A DNA stretch of 23,784 nucleotides from a virus. The position numbers and the translations under genes were made by a program. The notes under the pieces were generated by a model. That model was not told where the DNA came from. It searched no databases and saw only the letters and a list, made by a program, of their open reading frames with translations. Each line of letters opens with the position of its first letter. Within the stretch, counting starts at the first letter, position 1. Shown piece after piece: positions 4,337 through 21,054 of this stretch. The DNA lies in the IMG/VR virus record IMGVR_UViG_3300022413_000040, positions 1 through 23,784 of that record. One strand, 5' to 3'.

Positions 4337-6313
4337 ATGGCCGACGTTCAAACCTGCATTGTCCAAGCTACCTGCAATACCTCAACGGGTAATCAAACCT
4401 TTGCGCACGCCACGGAGACCTTTACCGCCAAGCTCGCCCTTTTCTACATGCATAACCCAACTACTGCGCTTAATACAGCGGTGGCGCACGCGTTTTGGGG
4501 GTTCGGTGCGGCCGATGGCACCACGCAATGCGCCATTGCGATACGTGTCGGCGAGGACAACGTATCAACGTCGGACGTGCGGCGTTTTGGTTTCAATGAT
4601 GTCTGTATAGCCGCTGCCGCCGCGACCGCGAACACCATTCTTGATGAAGCAACGTTTGTTAATTTCACGTTAAGCGGTGGAAAGACAGCGGTTACGGTCA
4701 ACTGGACGAATGCACCTCTGTCGGCGCAGCAAATCACTGTAGTGCTAATGGGCGGCGCTGATTTTACGCCTGTTGTTGGTATTCATGACCTCGGCACCGG
4801 AACTAGCGCAGTTGATGTAGCGCTGGCGTTTGACCCTGACCTGGTGATGACGTTCGGCGATAACGACGATGTGGACGGTGTCGGGAATGCGGGCAGCTTC
4901 GGAAACTATTTTATGGGCTGGTGCACGAATCCCGCCAGCACTGCAGAGCAATTCTGTTTTTGTAACAGGGCGCAAGATGGACAAGCGCAAACGAACATTG
5001 GCGCGCACATTTTCACCAATCGAATGGGGGCGCAGATTGCCGCGACTGGCTCACCGACGTCGGACCATGAGTACACGATGGGGGCGCACAGTAGCTCTAC
5101 CGGGTTTTCGGTGACATCCGATGTGGGCACTGGTAACGATGACATGCTGTACGTCGCCATGGATTTGGGCGGCGCTGGGGTAAAAATTGGCACCCTGACC
5201 ACGCCAACATCGACGGGTAATAATGAACATTCCCCGTTGTCTTTCACGCCACAGCTGCTGCAAGTGCTTACAACATCGATGGAGGCGACCGATACCCCTG
5301 TCAGCTCTGCACTGTCCGGCGCCGCTGGCTATTACGTCACAGACTTCACAGACGAGGCATCCGGCGCATGGGCTGATGAGTTCCAGCCGGCGACGACTAA
5401 CACTCAAACGATTTCAGACAATAAGCTAAATCTACCGACGCATGACGGGTCTACTGGCCTTGTCGCGACCATGACTAGCGCCGATGCGGACGGCTGGACG
5501 TGGAACTTTTCGGCAGTTGAGGGGACCGCTAAAACCTGGATTTATTGCGCCATAGAGACCGATGCAGCTGGTAGTACCTTCAATCTGACAGCAACTGAAG
5601 CGCTATCATTTGCTGATCCTTCCACCGAGACAGCAGACTTTCCAGAGACCTCAACAGAAGCGCTTTCCCTGGTAGACGTTTCAACTAGTACCGCAACGCT
5701 TCTAAGGACGCTAGCCGAAACTCTTTCGTTAGTTGATGCATCAACAGAAGTGGGAGTGTTTCCAGAGACGTTAACAGAGGCGCTAGCTCTGGCAGATGTG
5801 TCATCTGCAGACGTTGGCATATTTGTATCGCTTGTGGAATCTCTGGTATTAGCTGATGTAGCGAGTGAAGCAGCGTCGTTTAGTGCTTCTATAGCAGAGT
5901 CTTTAGCGTTTTCTGAAGACTCAAGCGAACTTGCTGACGTTGTTAGAACGCTGGTTGAATCTCTTACATTAGTCGATACGGCAGAGGGTATAACAGGTGT
6001 TTCCGTGAGTGTTGCGGAAGCCTTGCTACTGAGTGATGTATCTAGCGAAGTGGCGACATTTGCGCGATCCATACTGGACGCTGTTGCATTCTCAGATAGT
6101 GCGGCAATTGCTACTAAGGTCATCGGCAAAATATTAACCGAGGCCCTGATATTTACAGATGTAGCGCTAGCAACCGGCGGTGTGCCTATACCGACAGGCC
6201 AGCGCGGGGGCTCGTCGCTATCACGCGCAAAAATGCGCAGGCTGGAACGCCTTCAGATGTTAAGGCGGGATGATGATGAAATAATGGCACTTATTGCGAG
6301 GTTACTTAAATGA
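4337..6313 (+). CDS. Large virion fibre-like protein with ten 20-residue repeats
   Basis: 658 residues. Residues 1 to about 400 are beta-rich, Thr/Ser/Gly/Ala-rich and resemble surface structural proteins. Residues 420 to about 616 consist of ten tandem repeats of close to 20 residues with the pattern [TAV]E[ATS]L.[LF].D.[SA], for example TEALSLVDVS, VESLVLADVA and AEALLLSDVS. The C-terminus is a basic-then-acidic helix (AKMRRLERLQMLRRDDDE). The gene starting at 6795 has the same repeat type, a related upstream beta domain and a matching C-terminal helix, so the two are paralogues and probably use the same docking site. Position between portal and scaffold genes fits a head fibre, decoration or tail-fibre role, which I cannot separate. 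It starts 3 bases after the preceding stop and ends with an ATGA overlap. Confidence 0.8.
   Translation: MADVQTCIVQATCNTSTGNQTFAHATETFTAKLALFYMHNPTTALNTAVAHAFWGFGAADGTTQCAIAIRVGEDNVSTSDVRRFGFNDVCIAAAAATANTILDEATFVNFTLSGGKTAVTVNWTNAPLSAQQITVVLMGGADFTPVVGIHDLGTGTSAVDVALAFDPDLVMTFGDNDDVDGVGNAGSFGNYFMGWCTNPASTAEQFCFCNRAQDGQAQTNIGAHIFTNRMGAQIAATGSPTSDHEYTMGAHSSSTGFSVTSDVGTGNDDMLYVAMDLGGAGVKIGTLTTPTSTGNNEHSPLSFTPQLLQVLTTSMEATDTPVSSALSGAAGYYVTDFTDEASGAWADEFQPATTNTQTISDNKLNLPTHDGSTGLVATMTSADADGWTWNFSAVEGTAKTWIYCAIETDAAGSTFNLTATEALSFADPSTETADFPETSTEALSLVDVSTSTATLLRTLAETLSLVDASTEVGVFPETLTEALALADVSSADVGIFVSLVESLVLADVASEAASFSASIAESLAFSEDSSELADVVRTLVESLTLVDTAEGITGVSVSVAEALLLSDVSSEVATFARSILDAVAFSDSAAIATKVIGKILTEALIFTDVALATGGVPIPTGQRGGSSLSRAKMRRLERLQMLRRDDDEIMALIARLLK
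5594..6184 (+). repeat. Ten tandem 60-bp coding repeats (degenerate)
   Basis: The segment encodes ten copies of a 20-residue unit, with unit starts near residues 420, 440, 460 and so on to 580 and a final unit at 601 after a one-residue shift. DNA copies are diverged while the E-x-L-x-L/F-x-D positions are kept, so selection acts on the protein pattern rather than recent DNA amplification. A long antisense frame (6129-5542) is open only because of this codon bias. Confidence 0.85.
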
Positions 6314-6795
6314 TTTCCGAAGGTTTGAAAATTAGTGGTTGGGTAATGATGGAACTGTGGGATCCTAATGGGAAGCTCCTAGCGAGGGATGAGGGGCCTA
6401 ATCTTATTGTCGACGAGGGCCTAGACTTCATCATCGACACAGCATTATCAGGCTCAACTCAAGACACCACTTTTTTTGTAGGCCTGAAGGATACAGGTAC
6501 TCCGCTTGCTAGCTGGACGCTGGCTACGGGCTTGACTGAAATCAATCCGTACACAGGCAATCGTATTGCCTGGACGGAAGACAATACAGCCACTGACCAA
6601 TCAGTGTCTAACTCGGTAGCTCCTGCCAGTTTTGCTATCACGGCAACGGATACCGTGTTTGGAGCACTTCTGGCCACGGTCAATACGGGGACTGCTGGCA
6701 CTCTGATAGGCGCTAAAGACTTCGCCGCTTCTCAGGCTGTGAATAACGGCGACACGCTAAACGTGACTTACACGATTAACGCAAGCAGTAGCTAA
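6310..6795 (+). CDS. Small virion structural protein, probably beta-sandwich
   Basis: 161 residues starting at an ATGA overlap and ending at a TAATG overlap, so it is translated within the fibre block. The N-terminus reads WVMMELWDPNGKLLARDEGP, then NLIVDEGLDFIIDTAL, an arrangement seen in many small phage structural proteins where a strand pair precedes 'N-IV-GL' and a helix. The rest is Thr/Ala/Asn-rich beta sequence ending in LNVTYTIN. It is sandwiched between the two repeat-bearing paralogues and may be a decoration protein or fibre adaptor. The exact role is inferred only from position. Confidence 0.75.
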   Translation: MISEGLKISGWVMMELWDPNGKLLARDEGPNLIVDEGLDFIIDTALSGSTQDTTFFVGLKDTGTPLASWTLATGLTEINPYTGNRIAWTEDNTATDQSVSNSVAPASFAITATDTVFGALLATVNTGTAGTLIGAKDFAASQAVNNGDTLNVTYTINASSS

Positions 6796-8501
6796 TGCCC
6801 AACGTTAAAGCCTCTGTCGGTTCCTTCACGGTCACGTCTGCGACACAGTTCGCGGTTACGGACGCGACCGCGTTTGGAGGCGATACACCAAAGGGGGTTT
6901 TATTTTGGACAGGCAACCATGCAGTAGGAACCATTTCAGACCATGCCCACTTCGGATTATGGGGGGCCACTGCTGATGATCTTGTTGGTAGTTGTATGCG
7001 ATACCGACATGACTTTAGTACAAGTCAAGTCAACCGTACCATAGCCGATGGTAACGTAGGTGCGGCAGCAACAGCGCTAGTGCTATCGGATATTTCCACG
7101 GCTACGGAAATGGTCTTGGATGCCAATGGGGACGGCATTGGTAGCAATCCTGGGCCGATTACCGATGGTTGGCGATTTGACGTTACTAGCTTTAGTGGTG
7201 GTTCTGTCACTGTTAATTACCTTCTCGTCGGTGGCGATGACTTAGAGATAAAAGCCACATCGCGTGGCGTCAATGATGCGACAGAGCTTTATGCTCATGG
7301 CTTTAGCAAGACAGATGCTGTATTGGGATTTGCTTGGGAGGCTAACGAATTTGCTTCCGGCGGGAATCATACCCGCACTAGTAGTTACAACAGTTATGGT
7401 TGTTTCGCCACTAATGACGGTGGAACCACCTTTGACCAATGGGCGGTTAGTCAGCGTGAAGTAAGTGGATCATCCGCTCAAGATATTATTGGCGCATTTA
7501 GCAATCTGGATTGCATCAATGATTCGAGTGTTGATTCAGGGCACAACACAGCAAATACCCGCCAATATCGGGCAACGGGCCTTGATTCCACTAACCTAGA
7601 GATAACTAACGTTCTAGGGGCCTTTGGGTCCAGTCCGCCGATTCTTTTCCTGTGGATGATATCTATCCCTAGCACGTTGAATGTCTGGGTCGGGGATTAC
7701 GCCTTGCCGACCTCTGGCGGGACCTTTACCCCTTCATCTCAACCCGGGTTTGAGCCAGGCGTATACGGAATCATGGCCTCTGGCCACACTACTGCCAACG
7801 ATTGGGAACAGGTAGAGGGTTCGGGCGCTTGGTCTTTCGGTGTGCAGGATGAATTTGGCAACCATAAATCTGCCTCGATTATCGTCGAAGGCGAGATGCT
7901 GACCTCTGAAAACACCTTCGCTAAGTCTCTAACTAGTAATAACTTCCTAGACCACAACACGGTTTCCGGGTCGTCAGTGTCGAGTGCTGCTGTATTCACT
8001 GCGGCAACCTTCATCTCTACTGGCATAGAGGTTGCTTCTCCTACGGGTACCTTTGGCGGTCTGGCTGGTGCGTTCGCCTTTGAGACTGCCACCACTGCAC
8101 CAGTGGATAAGACATCTACCGATACACTGTCATTCACTGACACTGCAACGTCTGACATCTTATTCAATAGAACCGTTTCTGAATCTTTAGTATTGGCGGA
8201 CACTGCAGTAGGCGTAGGACCTATTCAGGTATCGGTTACTGAAACCCTGGTATTGACTGACGACACGGTTGAGTTAACCCCGCCGAATGTCTTCAGCGGC
8301 ATTCTGACAGAAGCCCTCGTTTTTTCTGATTCAGCGCTTGCGAGCGGCATTGCTCCGGTTGCTGTTGGCGGCGTTAGTGGTATGACGATCCCTGACGTTA
8401 GGACTATGCGCAGAAAGGAACGGCTGCAGGTATTGGCTCGTCAAGACCAGGCACTGCTTGAATTCTTGAGAAAAGAACTATCCAGGGGGCCTAGGCAATG
8501 A
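6795..8501 (+). CDS. Second virion fibre-like protein, paralogue of the 4337 gene product
   Basis: 568 residues. A Ser/Thr/Gly-rich beta domain (residues 1 to about 440) includes a hydrophobic strand followed by GGDD (VNYLLVGGDD) comparable to VVLMGGADF in the first fibre protein. Four repeats of the same E/D-x-L-x-L/F-x-D type then occupy about residues 440-518 (TDTLSFTDTA, SESLVLADTA, TETLVLTDDT, TEALVFSDSA). The C-terminal helix MRRKERLQVLARQDQ matches MRRLERLQMLRRDDD of the paralogue. It probably makes a second fibre or decoration species that attaches through the same C-terminal module. It begins with TAATG and ends with ATGA. Confidence 0.8.
   Translation: MPNVKASVGSFTVTSATQFAVTDATAFGGDTPKGVLFWTGNHAVGTISDHAHFGLWGATADDLVGSCMRYRHDFSTSQVNRTIADGNVGAAATALVLSDISTATEMVLDANGDGIGSNPGPITDGWRFDVTSFSGGSVTVNYLLVGGDDLEIKATSRGVNDATELYAHGFSKTDAVLGFAWEANEFASGGNHTRTSSYNSYGCFATNDGGTTFDQWAVSQREVSGSSAQDIIGAFSNLDCINDSSVDSGHNTANTRQYRATGLDSTNLEITNVLGAFGSSPPILFLWMISIPSTLNVWVGDYALPTSGGTFTPSSQPGFEPGVYGIMASGHTTANDWEQVEGSGAWSFGVQDEFGNHKSASIIVEGEMLTSENTFAKSLTSNNFLDHNTVSGSSVSSAAVFTAATFISTGIEVASPTGTFGGLAGAFAFETATTAPVDKTSTDTLSFTDTATSDILFNRTVSESLVLADTAVGVGPIQVSVTETLVLTDDTVELTPPNVFSGILTEALVFSDSALASGIAPVAVGGVSGMTIPDVRTMRRKERLQVLARQDQALLEFLRKELSRGPRQ
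8118..8347 (+). repeat. Four diverged 20-22-residue coding repeats related to those at 5594-6184
   Basis: Four units begin TDTLSF, SESLVL, TETLVL and TEALVF. The third unit is lengthened by a few residues (a Pro-Pro-Asn insertion). The final unit, TEALVFSDSALASG, is nearly the same as the final unit of the larger array, TEALIFTDVALATGG, so the last repeat and C-terminus were probably duplicated together. Confidence 0.75.
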
Positions 8502-8963: not shown

Positions 8964-9662
8964 ATGTCAAACGCAGTAGATCCTCCCAAGCCTGGTAATG
9001 CCGATAACGTGACAGCACCAGACCCTGATGTCCCAGAGAAGTTTGCAGGAAAATCTGTTGCCGAAGTGGCCCAGAGCTACGTTGAGTTGGAAAGCAAGTT
9101 AGGCCAACAAAGCAGCGAGCTATCGAAACTTCGTCAAATGCTGAACGAATCAACACAGGCAGCCGCACCACCAGCTGAGGAGGTTGACTTCTATAGCGAC
9201 CCGCAGGCCGCTGTAGCTCAAACGGTGCAGCCGTTAGCTCAGGCAATTGCAGAACTTCGCGTTGAAAACATGAAGGCAAAGCTTGCTTCAGCTCATCCAA
9301 ACTATGAAGCCACCATCCAAGATGTGAAGTTTCAGGAATGGGTAGCCGATAGCAGGGTTCGTATCGGATTGTGGAATGATGCCAACGTCGGCGACTTCCA
9401 TTCAGCGAGAGAATTATTCTCAACCTGGGAGACGGTCAACCAGTCAAATGCTCAGGCCCAAACAGGTAAAAAGGAAGCGGTAAAGCGTGACCGTAAGTTA
9501 CGTGCCGCGACCACTGAAAAGGGCTCTGTTGGACTTGCTCCGGGAAAGACGTTCAACAATCAGGACTTAATTGAACTGAAGCGACGCAACCCGGAGAAGT
9601 ATCGTTCAATGTCTGCCGATATTGTAAAGGCATATGCAGAAGGCAGAGTAACTAGGAGTTAG
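8964..9662 (+). CDS. Capsid assembly scaffolding protein
   Basis: 232 residues, typical scaffold length, directly before the capsid gene, with a good ribosome-binding site (CAGGAGAAG). Pro/Asp-rich N-terminus, then the common scaffold segment PEKFAGKSVAEVAQSYVELE (about 24-43), a heptad-like helix (ESKLGQQSSELSKLRQML), a Gln/Ala-rich linker and a basic C-terminus (ELKRRNPEKYRSMSADIVKA) that would contact the coat protein. Scaffolds nucleate proheads and leave or are degraded before DNA entry. Confidence 0.88.
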   Translation: MSNAVDPPKPGNADNVTAPDPDVPEKFAGKSVAEVAQSYVELESKLGQQSSELSKLRQMLNESTQAAAPPAEEVDFYSDPQAAVAQTVQPLAQAIAELRVENMKAKLASAHPNYEATIQDVKFQEWVADSRVRIGLWNDANVGDFHSARELFSTWETVNQSNAQAQTGKKEAVKRDRKLRAATTEKGSVGLAPGKTFNNQDLIELKRRNPEKYRSMSADIVKAYAEGRVTRS

Positions 9663-9667
9663 CCTCT

Positions 9668-10579
9668 ATGGCAGCTTTCCCAGCTGACGGCGTCACAGCC
9701 GCTGAAGCCGCAACATTCATACCGGAACTCTGGTCTGATGAAGTGGTAGCCGCATATAAGTCCAATCTAGTATTGGCAGGGCTGGTGACGCAGTTCAATC
9801 ATCAGGGTCGCAAGGGTGATGTGTTTCATATCCCAGCGCCCGTGCGAGGTACGGCCAGTGCTAAGGCGGCAGATACTGCCGTTACGGTCATTCCTCACAC
9901 CGATTCTGATATTCCGATTAACATCAATCTACACTTTGAATACTCGCGATTCATCGAAGACATTGCAGCCAAGCAAGCGTTGGATTCCATGCGGGAATTC
10001 TTCACAGATGACGCTGGATTCAGTCTGGCTACCCAGGTAGACACTTCCCTGCATGGGGTTGGTAACCTTCTACAAGGTGGTGCGGGTACCGCAGCTTATG
10101 ACACGGCGGTCATCGGTTCCGACGGGGCAACGGCCTACACTGGAACCAATCAGGCTGCGTTAGCCGATGACGGCATCAGGCAAGCGATTCAATTGCTTGA
10201 TGATGTCAACGTGCCTATGCGTGACCGCTTCCTAGTGATTCCGCCAGTTGAGAAGAATAACCTTCTCGGTCTGGCTCGCTTCACTGAGCAAGCGTTCGTG
10301 GGTGAGGTTGGCATGGCCAACAGCATCCGCAACGGCATGATAGGCAATATCTACGGTGTTCCGGTGTTTGTCTCAACGCAGTGTGCAACGGCGACTGGCG
10401 CCGCGCGCATCTGCCTGCTGTTGCACAAATCGGCTATTGCGCTGGTCACTCAGCTTGATATCCGAGTACAGACGCAATACAAACAGGAATACTTGGCCGA
10501 CCTCTTGACCGCTGACACCATCTACGGTGTTGGGGAGTTGCGAGACGATGCAGGAGTTGCAATCGCAGTGACCGCCTAA
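9668..10579 (+). CDS. Major capsid protein
   Basis: 303 residues, placed 5 bases after the scaffold gene and before the adaptor gene. The N-terminal arm (residues 13-40) contains FIPELWSDEVVAAYKSNLVL, then GRKGDVFHIPAPVRGTAS, a pattern shared by a broad group of podovirus and siphovirus coat proteins with an HK97-type fold. The central part (EYSRFIEDIAAKQALDSM) fits the long spine helix and P-domain region, and the C-terminal third reads like the A-domain. A strong terminator 15 bases downstream would give this gene's transcripts a defined end. Residues 17-40 are partly copied in the minus-strand protein at 19632-19859. Confidence 0.9.
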   Translation: MAAFPADGVTAAEAATFIPELWSDEVVAAYKSNLVLAGLVTQFNHQGRKGDVFHIPAPVRGTASAKAADTAVTVIPHTDSDIPININLHFEYSRFIEDIAAKQALDSMREFFTDDAGFSLATQVDTSLHGVGNLLQGGAGTAAYDTAVIGSDGATAYTGTNQAALADDGIRQAIQLLDDVNVPMRDRFLVIPPVEKNNLLGLARFTEQAFVGEVGMANSIRNGMIGNIYGVPVFVSTQCATATGAARICLLLHKSAIALVTQLDIRVQTQYKQEYLADLLTADTIYGVGELRDDAGVAIAVTA

Positions 10580-17561: not shown

Positions 17562-17954
17562 TTATTGCTCCAGTCGCCTAGGAAGTGGCATCCAATACAA
17601 CACATCTTGGCCGAACCAAGTGGATGGTCCGAATTCTTCCCAACGATAAGGCCGCTGGTTGTTACGATCTTCGTCGGCGCCTTTGAAGTTAAGCTTGCGT
17701 TTGCTGTTGTTTGGTAGAGCCTCACGCTCGGCTTTCGAAATGCCACGTTTGCAGACTGCAATCGCCCATTTCACGCCTTCTGGATCATGTTTATCGTCAT
17801 ACGGCGGATCGTCGAGACGAATCAACACATACTTGCCTTTCGGTGGTAACACATCATCTGGTGAATAAATCGGAAGTTCCACCAAGCTCACTGGGTTGGC
17901 CACTGGTGCGAGCGCGGCAGCGCCACCCGTTTTGAAGAACGTTCGGCGATCCAT
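17562..17954 (-). CDS. DUF551-like phage protein with a twin-arginine-like N-terminus
   Basis: 130 residues from ATG 17954. The C-terminus WEEFGPSTWF then DVLYWMPLPRRLE matches the end of DUF551-type phage proteins (a Trp-Met-Pro-Leu-Pro terminal motif). A middle segment reads YVLIRLDDPPYDDKHDP. The N-terminus MDRRTFFKTGGAAALAPVA matches the Tat export consensus (R-R-x-F-x-K), although the hydrophobic core is weak and Pro/Asn-interrupted, so export is uncertain. ATG 17954 has only AGG two bases upstream, which is too close for a good site, while a strongly initiated frame starts at 18004 and overlaps it. The N-terminus may therefore be misassigned or reached by frameshift. Confidence 0.6.
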   Translation of the reverse strand: MDRRTFFKTGGAAALAPVANPVSLVELPIYSPDDVLPPKGKYVLIRLDDPPYDDKHDPEGVKWAIAVCKRGISKAEREALPNNSKRKLNFKGADEDRNNQRPYRWEEFGPSTWFGQDVLYWMPLPRRLEQ

Positions 17955-18004: not shown

Positions 18005-18195
18005 CACAAATCCTCCAGCTTGGGCCGCCTATCCATGATAGGAATAACGCCTGCGCCGCGGCACCATCGGCATACGAGTTGGTTTGTCGTGGCCGTGGTG
18101 GGTTCCTCCTTCGACCCATAGCACCGCCCGCATATAGCAACGCCAACGAAGTTCCGTGCCCAGTCTTCGATAAAGCGTCCAATATCAGACGCCAT
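18004..18195 (-). CDS. Small protein with two CxxC pairs (zinc-ribbon-like)
   Basis: 63 residues from ATG 18195, coupled by TGATG to the gene before it and preceded by GGAGG. Two cysteine pairs (ICGRCYG and VCRWCRG), 14 residues apart between the knuckles, would form a zinc ribbon. The rest is helical (IGRFIEDWARNFVG) with a short acidic end. Such proteins are often nucleic-acid or protein adaptors, but this family is not recognised. A GTG one codon earlier is possible but unnecessary. Confidence 0.7.
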   Translation of the reverse strand: MASDIGRFIEDWARNFVGVAICGRCYGSKEEPTTATTNQLVCRWCRGAGVIPIMDRRPKLEDL

Positions 18196-18914
18196 CACAA
18201 ATCCTCCAATGCTTCGCGCAGCATTGTTTCTAGCCGATCATTTTGCGCAGCCCATGCCGCAGCCCTTGCCACATCCCCTGCCGCAGCCCATGCGGCATCC
18301 CATGTCGCAGCCCCTGCCGCAGCCCATGCCGTAGCCCTTGCCACATCCCCTGCCGCAGTCCATGCGGCATCCCATGTCGCAGCCCCTGCCGCAGTCCATG
18401 CGGCATCCCATGTCGCAGCCCCTGCCGCAGTCCATGCGGCATCCCTTGCCGCCTCCCATGCCGCCTCCCATGCCGCATCCCCTGCCGAATCCCATGCCGA
18501 ATCCCATGCCGTAGCCCTTGCCACATCCCTGATCTCTGGATCTTGTGTGGTCAGGTACTCACGCACGATCTCAGGCATATCCCAGAGATGCGCAACGTCT
18601 AACGCACACTGACAGGCAAAACTCCGCAGAAGATCTTCACAATTAATATAGTCAGTGAGTCCCACTCGTTTCGACGCGCAGATTTTATCGACGGGATCCC
18701 CGTGCTCCACAATAGTCCCGGTGAGTTTGACTCTAGCAACCCATGCTCCAGGTGCGTATCTAAGGGCATCGATAGCGCGTGTCGCTCCGTGATAACCCCG
18801 CACACAGGGTTCGATATTCTCGATTTCCGGTAATGCCACCCCTTCCCCTGGTAACGGCGAACCATCACGCAATGTGTCGCCCGCAAAATGCCAGCAGCGA
18901 AAAGATTCCTTCAT
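18195..18914 (-). CDS. DUF7666-like protein with Ala/Trp-rich repeat tail
   Basis: 239 residues starting at an ATGA overlap. Residues 1 to about 120 form a compact domain with CWHFAGDTLRDG, GYHGATRAIDAL and WVARVKLTGTIVEHGD, the layout of the phage 'cargo' domain family called DUF7666 (identified from memory, moderate certainty). Residues 130-223 are Ala/Trp tandem repeats with a 12-residue period (AAWTAAGAATWD), likely a long helix or solenoid. The last 15 residues return to normal sequence (ETMLREALEDL). No catalytic motif is seen. The repeat tract is a candidate for length variation between phage relatives. Confidence 0.75.
   Translation of the reverse strand: MKESFRCWHFAGDTLRDGSPLPGEGVALPEIENIEPCVRGYHGATRAIDALRYAPGAWVARVKLTGTIVEHGDPVDKICASKRVGLTDYINCEDLLRSFACQCALDVAHLWDMPEIVREYLTTQDPEIRDVARATAWDSAWDSAGDAAWEAAWEAARDAAWTAAGAATWDAAWTAAGAATWDAAWTAAGDVARATAWAAAGAATWDAAWAAAGDVARAAAWAAQNDRLETMLREALEDL
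18246..18527 (-). repeat. Tandem repeats, 12-bp unit and 36-bp higher-order period
   Basis: Degenerate 12-bp units on the plus strand (CCGCAGCCCATG and variants) are arranged in a 36-bp period that is near identical in three consecutive copies around 18356-18445. The unit is a multiple of 3 with no stop, so all six frames are open through the tract. Antisense frames here (for example 18243-18602 and 18079-18612 on the plus strand) are therefore repeat artefacts. Confidence 0.9.
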
Positions 18915-19099: not shown

Positions 19100-19405
19100 C
19101 TACTCCTGTGCTAATCCGATGAACGTTTCCCAGCTCATATAGACTCTCGGTTCTCCATGGTTGCGCTTGATGACCAGGAAGTCAGCAGCGCCCATGGCGT
19201 TGTCGCCGGTTCTCCATCCATCCTTCCAGGCCTTACACTCAATGATGTAGCGCTTGCCTCGCATCCGCACCATGGCGTCATGCGGGAAGTCTGAATACAC
19301 GCCTGAACCGGGTTGACGGCGTGACGATAGGCCAACCTTTGCGAGCTCAAGCGCTACCCACTTCTCTAGCTTGGTTCCCTTAGCCTTAGCTGACGCAGCT
19401 TTCAT
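19100..19405 (-). CDS. Hjc-like Holliday junction resolvase (PD-(D/E)XK nuclease)
   Basis: 101 residues from ATG 19405, chosen because it overlaps the previous stop by ATGA; a TTG 9 codons earlier lacks support. A small PD-(D/E)XK fold is recognisable: Glu 14 in KGTKLEKWVALEL, Gly-rich GSGVYSDFPHDAMV with Asp 43, then the catalytic IIECKAW (Glu 56, Lys 58) and a following strand AADFLVIKR. This order is typical of archaeal Hjc/VRR-type resolvases and small phage recombination nucleases. In this operon it would resolve branched DNA together with the larger nuclease and SSB-like protein upstream. Confidence 0.75.
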   Translation of the reverse strand: MKAASAKAKGTKLEKWVALELAKVGLSSRRQPGSGVYSDFPHDAMVRMRGKRYIIECKAWKDGWRTGDNAMGAADFLVIKRNHGEPRVYMSWETFIGLAQE

Positions 19406-19635
19406 GGCATTGGCATCGTTTTGGTATCCCAATCACTAGCGCTTTCCGCGTACTCCCACACTGCACAGCAATGAAATATGTTCCTGTTTCGCGTGGTCTC
19501 AATCTTGAATTGAACCAGCCGGCAAGTTTGCTCAATAGTCGGTTGGCAAGTCTCTAGAGCTAGAGCCAGAGTCCTCTGGTTTGGAGAATCGTGCGTTGTG
19601 CCATACGTGAATTCCCGATAGTAATAGCGGTTCAT
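19402..19635 (-). CDS. Small protein of unknown function in the minus-strand operon
   Basis: 77 residues from ATG 19635, overlapping both neighbours by ATGA. It has a tyrosine-rich start (MNRYYYREFTYG) and four cysteines (TCQPTIEQTCRL, FHCCAVWEY), without a clear metal-site spacing. It ends TKTMPMP. Not recognised. Confidence 0.6.
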   Translation of the reverse strand: MNRYYYREFTYGTTHDSPNQRTLALALETCQPTIEQTCRLVQFKIETTRNRNIFHCCAVWEYAESASDWDTKTMPMP

Positions 19636-19859
19636 GAGAGATAGGTAACCAGTACCCCCCCGAGTAAACCGCACGTAATACCGAAAAGAACTATCCAGGC
19701 ATATTCACTTGAGCGATTAAGTTTCCGAAGGAACTTCGTAGGCTTGCGCATTAGCTTCGAAATATGGAGATTAGCTGCATAGGCAGCTATGACTTCATCG
19801 CTCCAAAGCTCTGCAATAATAGACCTCGAAACGATTGACTCTGGCTTACTCTTTTTCAC
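19632..19859 (-). CDS. Membrane protein carrying a copy of the capsid N-terminal arm
   Basis: 75 residues from GTG 19859 (GTGA overlap with the previous stop; upstream in-frame codons lie in that gene). Residues 14-37 (IIAELWSDEVIAAYAANLHI and four more) align without gaps to residues 17-40 of the major capsid protein with 14 identities, including the block ELWSDEV-x-AAY. A basic linker (KPTKFLRKLNR) and one transmembrane helix at 54-74 (AWIVLFGITCGLLGGVLVTY) follow. Synonymous codons differ widely from the capsid gene, so this is not a recent DNA duplication. A cytoplasmic capsid-like helix tethered to the membrane could bind scaffold or coat, interfere with incoming virions, or titrate a host factor that senses capsid. 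All three are inference. Confidence 0.75.
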   Translation of the reverse strand: MKKSKPESIVSRSIIAELWSDEVIAAYAANLHISKLMRKPTKFLRKLNRSSEYAWIVLFGITCGLLGGVLVTYLS

Positions 19860-20188
19860 GTTCCATACCCCTTCATCTCTGTACGTTTGGTGGCTTGCTC
19901 TGTTCTCCACATCTCAATCTTCATCTCTGCTCGCTTTAAGGCCCATAAGGCTACGGCCTCCTCCTCCACCGCAACCCTCAGGCCCTTCAAGTGCAGCTCA
20001 TAGGCATGGCTTGCGAGTGCTTCGCGCTCCTGTGCCGCTGCTGAGGTTACCCCCTCCCCTTCCGCTACCTTCATCTGTAGAGCAATCACGGCCCGTCTGT
20101 AGGGCTCCATATAGGTGGCCGTGGCTTTAGCGGTCGCATAAGTCTGCGCTGCCTCACGTACCGCGTGTAAATAATGCTCGATATCCAT
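19856..20188 (-). CDS. Helical phage protein linked to the recombination genes, unknown function
   Basis: 110 residues, TAATG-coupled to the nuclease gene. It is almost entirely helical and charged: YRRAVIALQMKVAEGEG, a Ser/Ala loop, then EREALASHAYELHLKG and AEMKIEMWRTEQATKR. Proteins of this pattern are common beside phage nuclease or recombinase genes, with no biochemical role known to me. Possibly an accessory factor of the neighbouring nuclease. Confidence 0.7.
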   Translation of the reverse strand: MDIEHYLHAVREAAQTYATAKATATYMEPYRRAVIALQMKVAEGEGVTSAAAQEREALASHAYELHLKGLRVAVEEEAVALWALKRAEMKIEMWRTEQATKRTEMKGYGT

Positions 20189-21054
20189 TAGCTGAGATTC
20201 TTCCCAAAGTCACACACGCTGCGCACAGGACACCAGTCAAGACAACGTGCCGGTGTGCCGGGTCGATGCTCAATATAGAAATCTGCATTCTGGGCAACGA
20301 TTCCATCTCTGTACTCTTGAGCCTCAGGCAGGGAATCACAGCGCTTTAACGCAGTCTTGCGTCCAGTCTTCATTACTGCCCAGTGCTCATCCCGTTCCCA
20401 GCGCTCCGCCGAAGAGCACTCTTTTGAGGGTGCTTCAAGAGCACGTAGACGAGTGCTCACGAAGTTTTCAACATCCCCAATGGGCCAGGGTCTGAATTGG
20501 TAAATCTGGTAGCGCTTGCGCGGTAGGTCAAAGTTCCTCTGTACTTCTCGTTTCTTCCAATCGGTGAAGACTGCATGAACTTCTAGGCGGTCTAGAGGGT
20601 GCCCAGACTCGGCCAACATCCAGCGATACAGGTTTACCTGCTGCTCCCATTCCCGCTTGCCAAAGACATGGCTCCACATGCTGGTGGTTTTATAATCCCT
20701 TAGCAGGCTCTGAGACTGGCTCCACCAGTCAGGCGTGCCCTTAATCAGCCAGTCATCGAAGTGGTAGTCAATTGACTGCTCTTCGCAGGAGTCATGCGGG
20801 CCATATTCCAGACTAGCCAGATACTCATGGAAGCCAATGCCTAGCATGGCTGGGATACGGCTCTCTGCTTCGGTGTCATCGACCCATTGGTAAGCGTCCT
20901 TCAAGCGAACCTGATGCGCTGGGTTGAGTAATTCAGTGACATGAATAACCTTCTTTTCCAGGTTGGCGGAGCGTCGCTCCATGGCCTCGCTAGCAGCGGT
21001 TAGCCAATCAGGTATAGCCTCAGCAGGCACGCCATTATTAGAAGGGGATGTCAT
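20188..21054 (-). CDS. PD-(D/E)XK exonuclease, Cas4/RecB-like
   Basis: 288 residues. Nuclease motifs in order: GIGFHEYL (His 76), IKGTPDWW (Asp 109), LLRDYKTT (Asp 120, Lys 122) and EQQVNLYRW (Gln 139, Tyr 143), the RecB-family set found in Cas4, AddB and phage recombination exonucleases. A C-terminal cysteine group CLDWCPVRSVC (271, 275, 281) could hold an iron-sulphur cluster, although the fourth N-terminal cysteine typical of Cas4 is not evident. It probably resects DNA ends during phage recombination or replication, working with the upstream SSB-like protein. It overlaps that gene by 17 bases. Confidence 0.85.
   Translation of the reverse strand: MTSPSNNGVPAEAIPDWLTAASEAMERRSANLEKKVIHVTELLNPAHQVRLKDAYQWVDDTEAESRIPAMLGIGFHEYLASLEYGPHDSCEEQSIDYHFDDWLIKGTPDWWSQSQSLLRDYKTTSMWSHVFGKREWEQQVNLYRWMLAESGHPLDRLEVHAVFTDWKKREVQRNFDLPRKRYQIYQFRPWPIGDVENFVSTRLRALEAPSKECSSAERWERDEHWAVMKTGRKTALKRCDSLPEAQEYRDGIVAQNADFYIEHRPGTPARCLDWCPVRSVCDFGKNLS

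Follow-up and report, generated by a model that had tools for sequence, protein, structure and literature searches.

A 75-residue protein encoded in the early-type operon of an uncultured tailed phage carries a segment that resembles the N-terminal arm of the phage's own major capsid protein, and this resemblance is real, lying beyond what chance would produce within one genome. With a probability of roughly 0.4 we take the resemblance to be selected: the small protein would be an early protein, anchored in the membrane by its C-terminal tail, which carries a coat-like, scaffold-docking helix and acts on scaffold or coat. Nearly as likely is convergence, according to which the gene encodes an ordinary accessory membrane protein whose amphipathic cytoplasmic helix, W-[ST]-D-E-[VI]-x-A-A-Y, has no capsid function.

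Gene context

The window, by which we mean the whole stretch of DNA analysed, is the entire virus record of 23,784 bases and is possibly a fragment. Its plus strand holds the genes for terminase, portal, probable scaffold, capsid and tail, and the minus strand carries, from about 22,431 to 17,562, an early-type operon that includes genes for an exonuclease and a RusA-like nuclease. The small gene sits between these two nuclease genes (Table 1). The original prediction had placed the small gene and the capsid gene on opposite strands and in different modules, and this is what we find: the former belongs to the early-type operon, the latter stands among the late structural genes. In a Foldseek search the model of the capsid protein matched the capsid of cyanophage A4 (9jwb, E 2.4e-17) and also that of T7.

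The GTG start of the small gene lies within the stop of the upstream gene (GTGA, 19859-19856) and its stop lies within the ATG of the downstream gene (ATGA, 19635-19632). Such overlaps are the usual layout of translationally coupled operons, and we therefore regard the small gene as part of one. An AAGGGG stretch is found immediately 5' of its start. The reading frame has the highest codon score of the six frames, yet a weak one (0.018 as compared to 0.15-0.24 in the neighbours). For the upstream 110-residue product there was no Pfam match and no meaningful PHROG match, and an Rfam search of the window gave no match.

Table 1. Coordinates of the features discussed (positions in the window)
Feature	Position	Strand	Basis
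Small gene, 75 aa, coat-arm-like helix and predicted C-terminal transmembrane helix	19632..19859	-	ORF, GTG start
Capsid-arm-like segment, residues 14-37 (IIAELWSDEVIAAYAANLHISKLM)	19749..19820	-	14/24 identical to capsid 17-40
Basic linker, residues 38-49 (RKPTKFLRKLNR)	19713..19748	-	Sequence; six Lys/Arg
Predicted transmembrane helix, residues 51-74	19638..19709	-	AlphaFold2 helix 51-73, block pLDDT 74-83
Upstream coupled gene, 110 aa	19856..20188	-	Stop overlaps GTG of the small gene
PD-(D/E)XK exonuclease, same operon	20188..21054	-	PF12705 E 6.1e-5; phrog_2139 exonuclease E 1.5e-32
Downstream coupled gene, 77 aa	19402..19635	-	ATG overlaps stop of the small gene
RusA-like / PD-(D/E)XK nuclease, same operon	19100..19432	-	phrog_244 E 6e-11
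Major capsid protein, 303 aa, HK97 fold	9668..10579	+	phrog_267 E 1.7e-46
Capsid N-arm, residues 17-40	9716..9787	+	Conserved across 48 relatives; helix 23-32 in model
Probable scaffold protein	8964..9662	+	phrog_19777 head scaffolding protein E 9.6e-6; directly upstream of capsid

Three further observations concern other genes of the window. A 239-residue protein (18195-18914, minus strand) consists mostly of Trp/Ala repeats (DAAWTAAGAATW) and is weakly similar to phrog_18326. A 130-residue protein (17562-17954, minus strand) starts with MDRRTFFKTGGAAALAP, which looks like a twin-arginine export signal (PF10518 E 7e-4, below cut-off) and is unusual for a phage. The neighbouring probable tail genes 4337-6313 and 6795-8501 have a degenerate C-terminal region in common (35% over 96 residues).

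Resemblance to the capsid arm

Residues 14-37 of the small protein align with capsid residues 17-40 without gaps, exactly as first described. In BLASTP the small protein and its own capsid score 34.7 bits. More specifically, a profile made from the capsids of 80 other phages, with the window excluded, finds the small ORF among 556 window ORFs at E = 2.9e-6; the match spans profile positions 13-41 and scores 21.8 bits, while 20,000 shuffles top out at 6.9 bits. Profile comparison had been set beforehand as a possible refutation, and the relation it found is significant. With a 29-column profile of the arm the small protein is detected at E 1.4e-6 among 37,776 ORFs (1.8 Mb), where the better matches that are not full-length are intron-split or contig-end capsid exons only. 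When all window ORFs are compared with each other, the small protein and the capsid pair at E = 1.6e-5, the sole other pair being a tail-gene repeat; 940 kb of control phage DNA yielded five short pairs with comparable scores, and each of these resembles a repeat of tail-type genes or an antisense shadow. Moreover, the small protein used as query on 56 related records finds the capsid gene in 50 of them and matches nothing else. Taken together, these results make chance within one genome an insufficient explanation. This conclusion is softened by the number of windows that may first have been scanned; from the E-values and about 30 genes we put the chance of any such pair at roughly 1e-4 per window.

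The residues retained are not evenly distributed over the arm. Among 48 aligned relatives, positions F17, P19, W22, D24, L34 and V35 of the capsid are invariant and S23, E25, A28, Y30, K31, A37 and N38 nearly so. Between E20 and Y30 (capsid numbering) the small protein is identical at 10 of 11 positions and has I for V27 at the eleventh; N33 and L34 are kept as well. It differs at F17, P19, K31, V35, A37 and N38; note that the phage's own capsid has G instead of N at position 38. Only W22, D24 and L34 are thus left out of F17, P19, W22, D24, K31, L34, V35, A37 and N38. Since the helix of the capsid model lies at 23-32 and the invariant residues that flank it are lost, it is the helix with its N-cap that is retained and not the extended arm. 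Compared to the N-arm of HK97-fold capsids (phrog_267, near cyanophage A4 9jwb), the small protein has the 24-residue segment with the helix ELWSDEV-I/V-AAY..NL in common, but in capsids the arm leads into the body of the fold (E-loop, P- and A-domain) and there is no membrane anchor, whereas in the small protein it is followed by the basic linker and the membrane helix. Unrelated sequence flanks the arm-like segment on both sides.

At the DNA level, the stretch that runs from Glu through the second Leu contains 12 identical residues and, as originally reported, 7 of them are encoded differently in the two genes; serine, for example, is TCT in one and AGC in the other. Over all 14 identities the number is 9 and the DNA identity 41/72. 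Random synonymous choice with the window's own codon usage would lead to 8.6 +/- 1.6 differences, and an independent origin would give the same picture, so that the DNA provides no evidence of descent. The original wording, that the protein had been kept while the DNA diverged, presumes descent and goes beyond this evidence. A recent duplication or copy of the capsid segment is ruled out by codon differences at the random level. The helix may have arisen by capsid-gene duplication, by transfer or by selection for resemblance.

Predicted topology of the small protein

A basic linker and then a transmembrane helix had been proposed to follow the match, and both are borne out by the linker at 38-49, the helix predicted at 51-73 and a best 19-residue Kyte-Doolittle mean of 2.19 (residues 56-74). 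The predicted hydrophobic helix of about 23 residues lies at the C-terminus, with one residue beyond it, and the arm-like stretch, N-terminal to this predicted anchor, is predicted to be helical too. Only the helices of the AlphaFold2 model are used here because it was made from one sequence and has a mean pLDDT of 63, i.e. low confidence. Given the six Lys/Arg in the 12-residue linker, we infer from the positive-inside rule that the arm-like helix should be on the cytoplasmic side. A Pfam match to Voltage_CLC (E 0.01, below cut-off) was rejected as presumably a membrane-helix match.

Related genes and capsid insertions

Searches of IMG/VR, phage records and GTDB genomes gave no homologue of the small protein, and there is therefore no sign of a conserved function. 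Its tblastn matches in Listeria and Klebsiella (E 0.2-8) were treated as chance. The exonuclease and a 182-residue protein of the operon have no close homologue in IMG/VR by pattern search, and the exonuclease had no match in 58 related records, a search with no positive control and with many fragments among the records. The closest sibling (L159; terminase 71%) is collinear with the window and its contig stops short of the early operon.

A pattern for arm-like peptides lacking the capsid proline was found in 73 contigs, none of which has it in a small non-capsid gene; about 40 of them are intron-split capsids. In these approximately 40 related IMG/VR contigs an intron-like insertion, 573-601 nt long, interrupts the capsid gene in the N-arm at the very junction of FIP with E[ILV]WSDE (L085:88-679, L096, L098, L106, L110, L128, L137 and L145 are examples). 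The insertion begins after CCT, the 5' exon ending in T, and ends in G. No Rfam family reaches the cut-off in 16 insertion-bearing contigs; in L085 the group I intron model matches below threshold (15.8 bits, E 0.19), with the match terminating at the splice point. On the minus strand of L202 (G065:C1:36000-41675) the capsid gene is apparently interrupted twice, and the first insertion contains, by eye, a LAGLIDADG-like reading frame. A 49-residue open frame with PELWSDDTIAAYKANLVVGNLVSKINHVGKRGDK in the same place was considered as a second small arm protein and is actually the capsid exon between the insertions. Introns in phage capsid genes are already known from mycobacteriophage cluster J (PMC3706429). 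The capsid gene of the window is unsplit.

The same helix in other phage proteins

Convergence draws its strength from the occurrence of the helix elsewhere. Searched against PHROGs, the small protein matches no capsid family and only phrog_6228, weakly (E 0.21, 13.1 bits, profile 66-85 of 92), and the family profile does not match it over its length. Proteins of this family have 'ALWTDEVIAAYAA' at the C-terminus. The best capsid-independent match to the helix in 50,697 phage records is the phrog_6228 protein gp42 of Synechococcus phage S-SBP1, which has the helix as ALWTDEVIAAYQA and the C-terminus IASALWTDEVIAAYQASVAASQL, with 13/25 residues identical to the small protein. The capsid arm of S-SBP1 was examined and the motif W-[ST]-D-E-[VI]-x-A-A-Y is absent from it, hence the helix of gp42 cannot be self-mimicry. 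When IMG/VR was scanned for W.DE[VI].x.YA, six contigs were obtained and all six matches are phrog_6228-type C-termini, one of which, with DEVIAAYAA, has nine consecutive residues in common with the small protein. The likeness lies in the helix LW[ST]DEVIAAY.A: in phrog_6228 it stands at the extreme C-terminus of soluble-looking proteins of ~85 residues with no obvious transmembrane helix, whereas in the small protein it occupies residues 17-32 of 75, and the gene neighbourhoods differ. The gp42 gene of S-SBP1, for instance, lies between tail-fibre genes. A strongly conserved terminal helix WTDEVIAAY is seen in the phrog_6228-type proteins of L206, L207, L209, L210, L211 and S-SBP1 (gp42, L155:2833-3087).

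At the C-terminus of scaffolds from the capsid's family there are likewise helices, ALSDEIMAAY for instance, that weakly resemble the helix of the small protein, and this too fits convergence. Their consensus [SQ][DP]EIMxAYxEGRV is similar to the helix of the coat N-arm (SDEIIAAYKKNLV), with a profile-profile P of 5e-5 over 15 columns, in a comparison comprising window positions 9540-9659 and the scaffold ORFs upstream of the capsids in L005, L012, L067, L068, L078 and L079. Judging by these sequences, scaffold and coat arm possibly compete for one site. Together with the C-termini of the phrog_6228 proteins, gp42 of S-SBP1 included, they indicate that the helix is a recurring solution and not specific to capsids. 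Codon differences at the random rate and the loss of capsid-invariant residues are equally what convergence would give. Against it, the small protein aligns with capsids over a longer stretch and with higher scores: the raw BLOSUM62 score of the small protein is 77 with its own capsid and up to 83 with other capsids, as compared to 57-68 with phrog_6228 C-termini, even though its own motif had served to select the latter. Convergence would also require a within-window coincidence of about 1e-5 per gene, and it leaves unexplained why the partner is in the same genome.

The original idea of a capsid-arm mimic is accordingly upheld in part. The profile match, the predicted helix and anchor and the retention of the helix residues speak for it, but the helix is not capsid-specific and capsid-invariant residues have changed. 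It is possible, although unproven, that the small protein deliberately mimics the arm.

Possible docking to the scaffold

A role for a coat-like helix is suggested by other phages. In the P22 procapsid the coat N-arm is helical and its D14, E15 and E18 bind R293 and K296 of the scaffold (PMC9965877); in SPP1 the helix of the coat arm binds scaffold and unfolds to an extended arm upon maturation (PMC6813328). At the docking site the P22 coat reads AVDEIIETI, the counterpart of WSDEVVAAY when aligned by eye (DE with DE). The scaffold family of our phage has a conserved C-terminal domain with several basic residues, ELKRRNPEKYRSMSADIVKAYAEGRVTRS, and by analogy we propose this domain (about 9540-9659) as the partner of the small protein's helix.

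The favoured reading, that of a selected, scaffold-docking helix, could then work as follows. The small protein would be made early, as a C-tail-anchored inner-membrane protein of the replication/recombination operon, and its cytoplasmic part would display a helix equivalent to that of the coat N-arm in this phage, the part of the coat which in well-studied phages docks scaffold. The tethered helix would bind the partners of the coat arm, first the basic C-terminal domain of scaffold and second a coat subunit; as for the consequence, we infer that head assembly would be held back or localised at the membrane until coat outnumbers the small protein. We favour this reading because capsid profiles match the small protein, because 50/56 records return the capsid gene, because the helix is kept, and because of the P22/SPP1 analogy and the basic scaffold C-terminus. 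Mimicry is weakened by the lack of a homologue, by the occurrence of the helix in phrog_6228 with no link to capsids and by random-level codons, which fit convergence as well; the docking-helix reading is further weakened by the placement of the gene in the early-type operon and not among the late structural genes, and by the pLDDT of 63. The full statement, that the early operon of a tailed phage encodes a membrane-tethered copy of the scaffold-docking coat helix controlling the place or time of head assembly, is one we consider rather doubtful.

Other explanations

Illegitimate recombination could have fused a 5' fragment of a capsid gene from some phage to a membrane-protein gene and left a helix with no selected role. 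The isolated position of the arm-like segment between unrelated sequences is consistent with this, and the window is a mosaic, capsid-sharing and terminase-sharing relatives lacking the operon's nuclease. We nevertheless regard a non-functional fusion as quite improbable, since an intact helix core despite random-level codons would not be expected of a fragment that had long been present under no selection, the gene is coupled tightly to both of its neighbours, and a donor capsid with the same version of the arm was not found.

Small early membrane proteins are common superinfection-exclusion factors, T4 Imm being an example, and an inner-membrane anchor, a trait of such proteins, is predicted here. 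The small protein, made early, might trap scaffold or coat, or might interfere with a step in the infection by a second, related phage. Satellite proteins known to redirect capsid assembly or to compete in it lend this some plausibility. SaPIbov5 Ccm, a coat homologue that redirects assembly of the helper capsid (PMC8569155), is comparable as a non-coat gene with coat-derived sequence that could act on assembly, but it is a full HK97-fold coat homologue found in pentamers, is satellite-encoded and is not membrane-bound. SaPI1 CpmA/CpmB (PMC5644958) and P4 Sid (PMC7552001) are likewise small proteins that alter the outcome of capsid assembly; in contrast to our protein, they belong to satellites and change capsid size. 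Trapping coat or scaffold would, however, be equally harmful to the resident phage, the window showed no lysogeny genes and PADLOC gave no match, which makes exclusion slightly less probable still than a fusion. Least probable of all is a decoy, i.e. that the membrane-held helix occupies a host defence sensor of capsid: capsid-sensing defences do exist, but in the TIR system that senses the major head protein the escape mutations lie in the E-loop and P-loop and not in the N-arm (PMC11312562), and the window contains no indication of a sensor.

Implications

Should convergence prove right, the value of the finding is methodological: unrelated phage proteins repeatedly contain a short, stable helix which can be mistaken for mimicry. 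If a selected docking helix is right, it would offer an immediate starting point for peptides against head assembly, and the small protein would be the phage's own version of those satellite proteins which usurp coat and scaffold contacts; to our knowledge SaPI1 CpmA/CpmB and P4 Sid have no membrane anchor. The phage would then be steering assembly by means of a membrane-held part of its own coat, and we know of no earlier case of a phage doing so.
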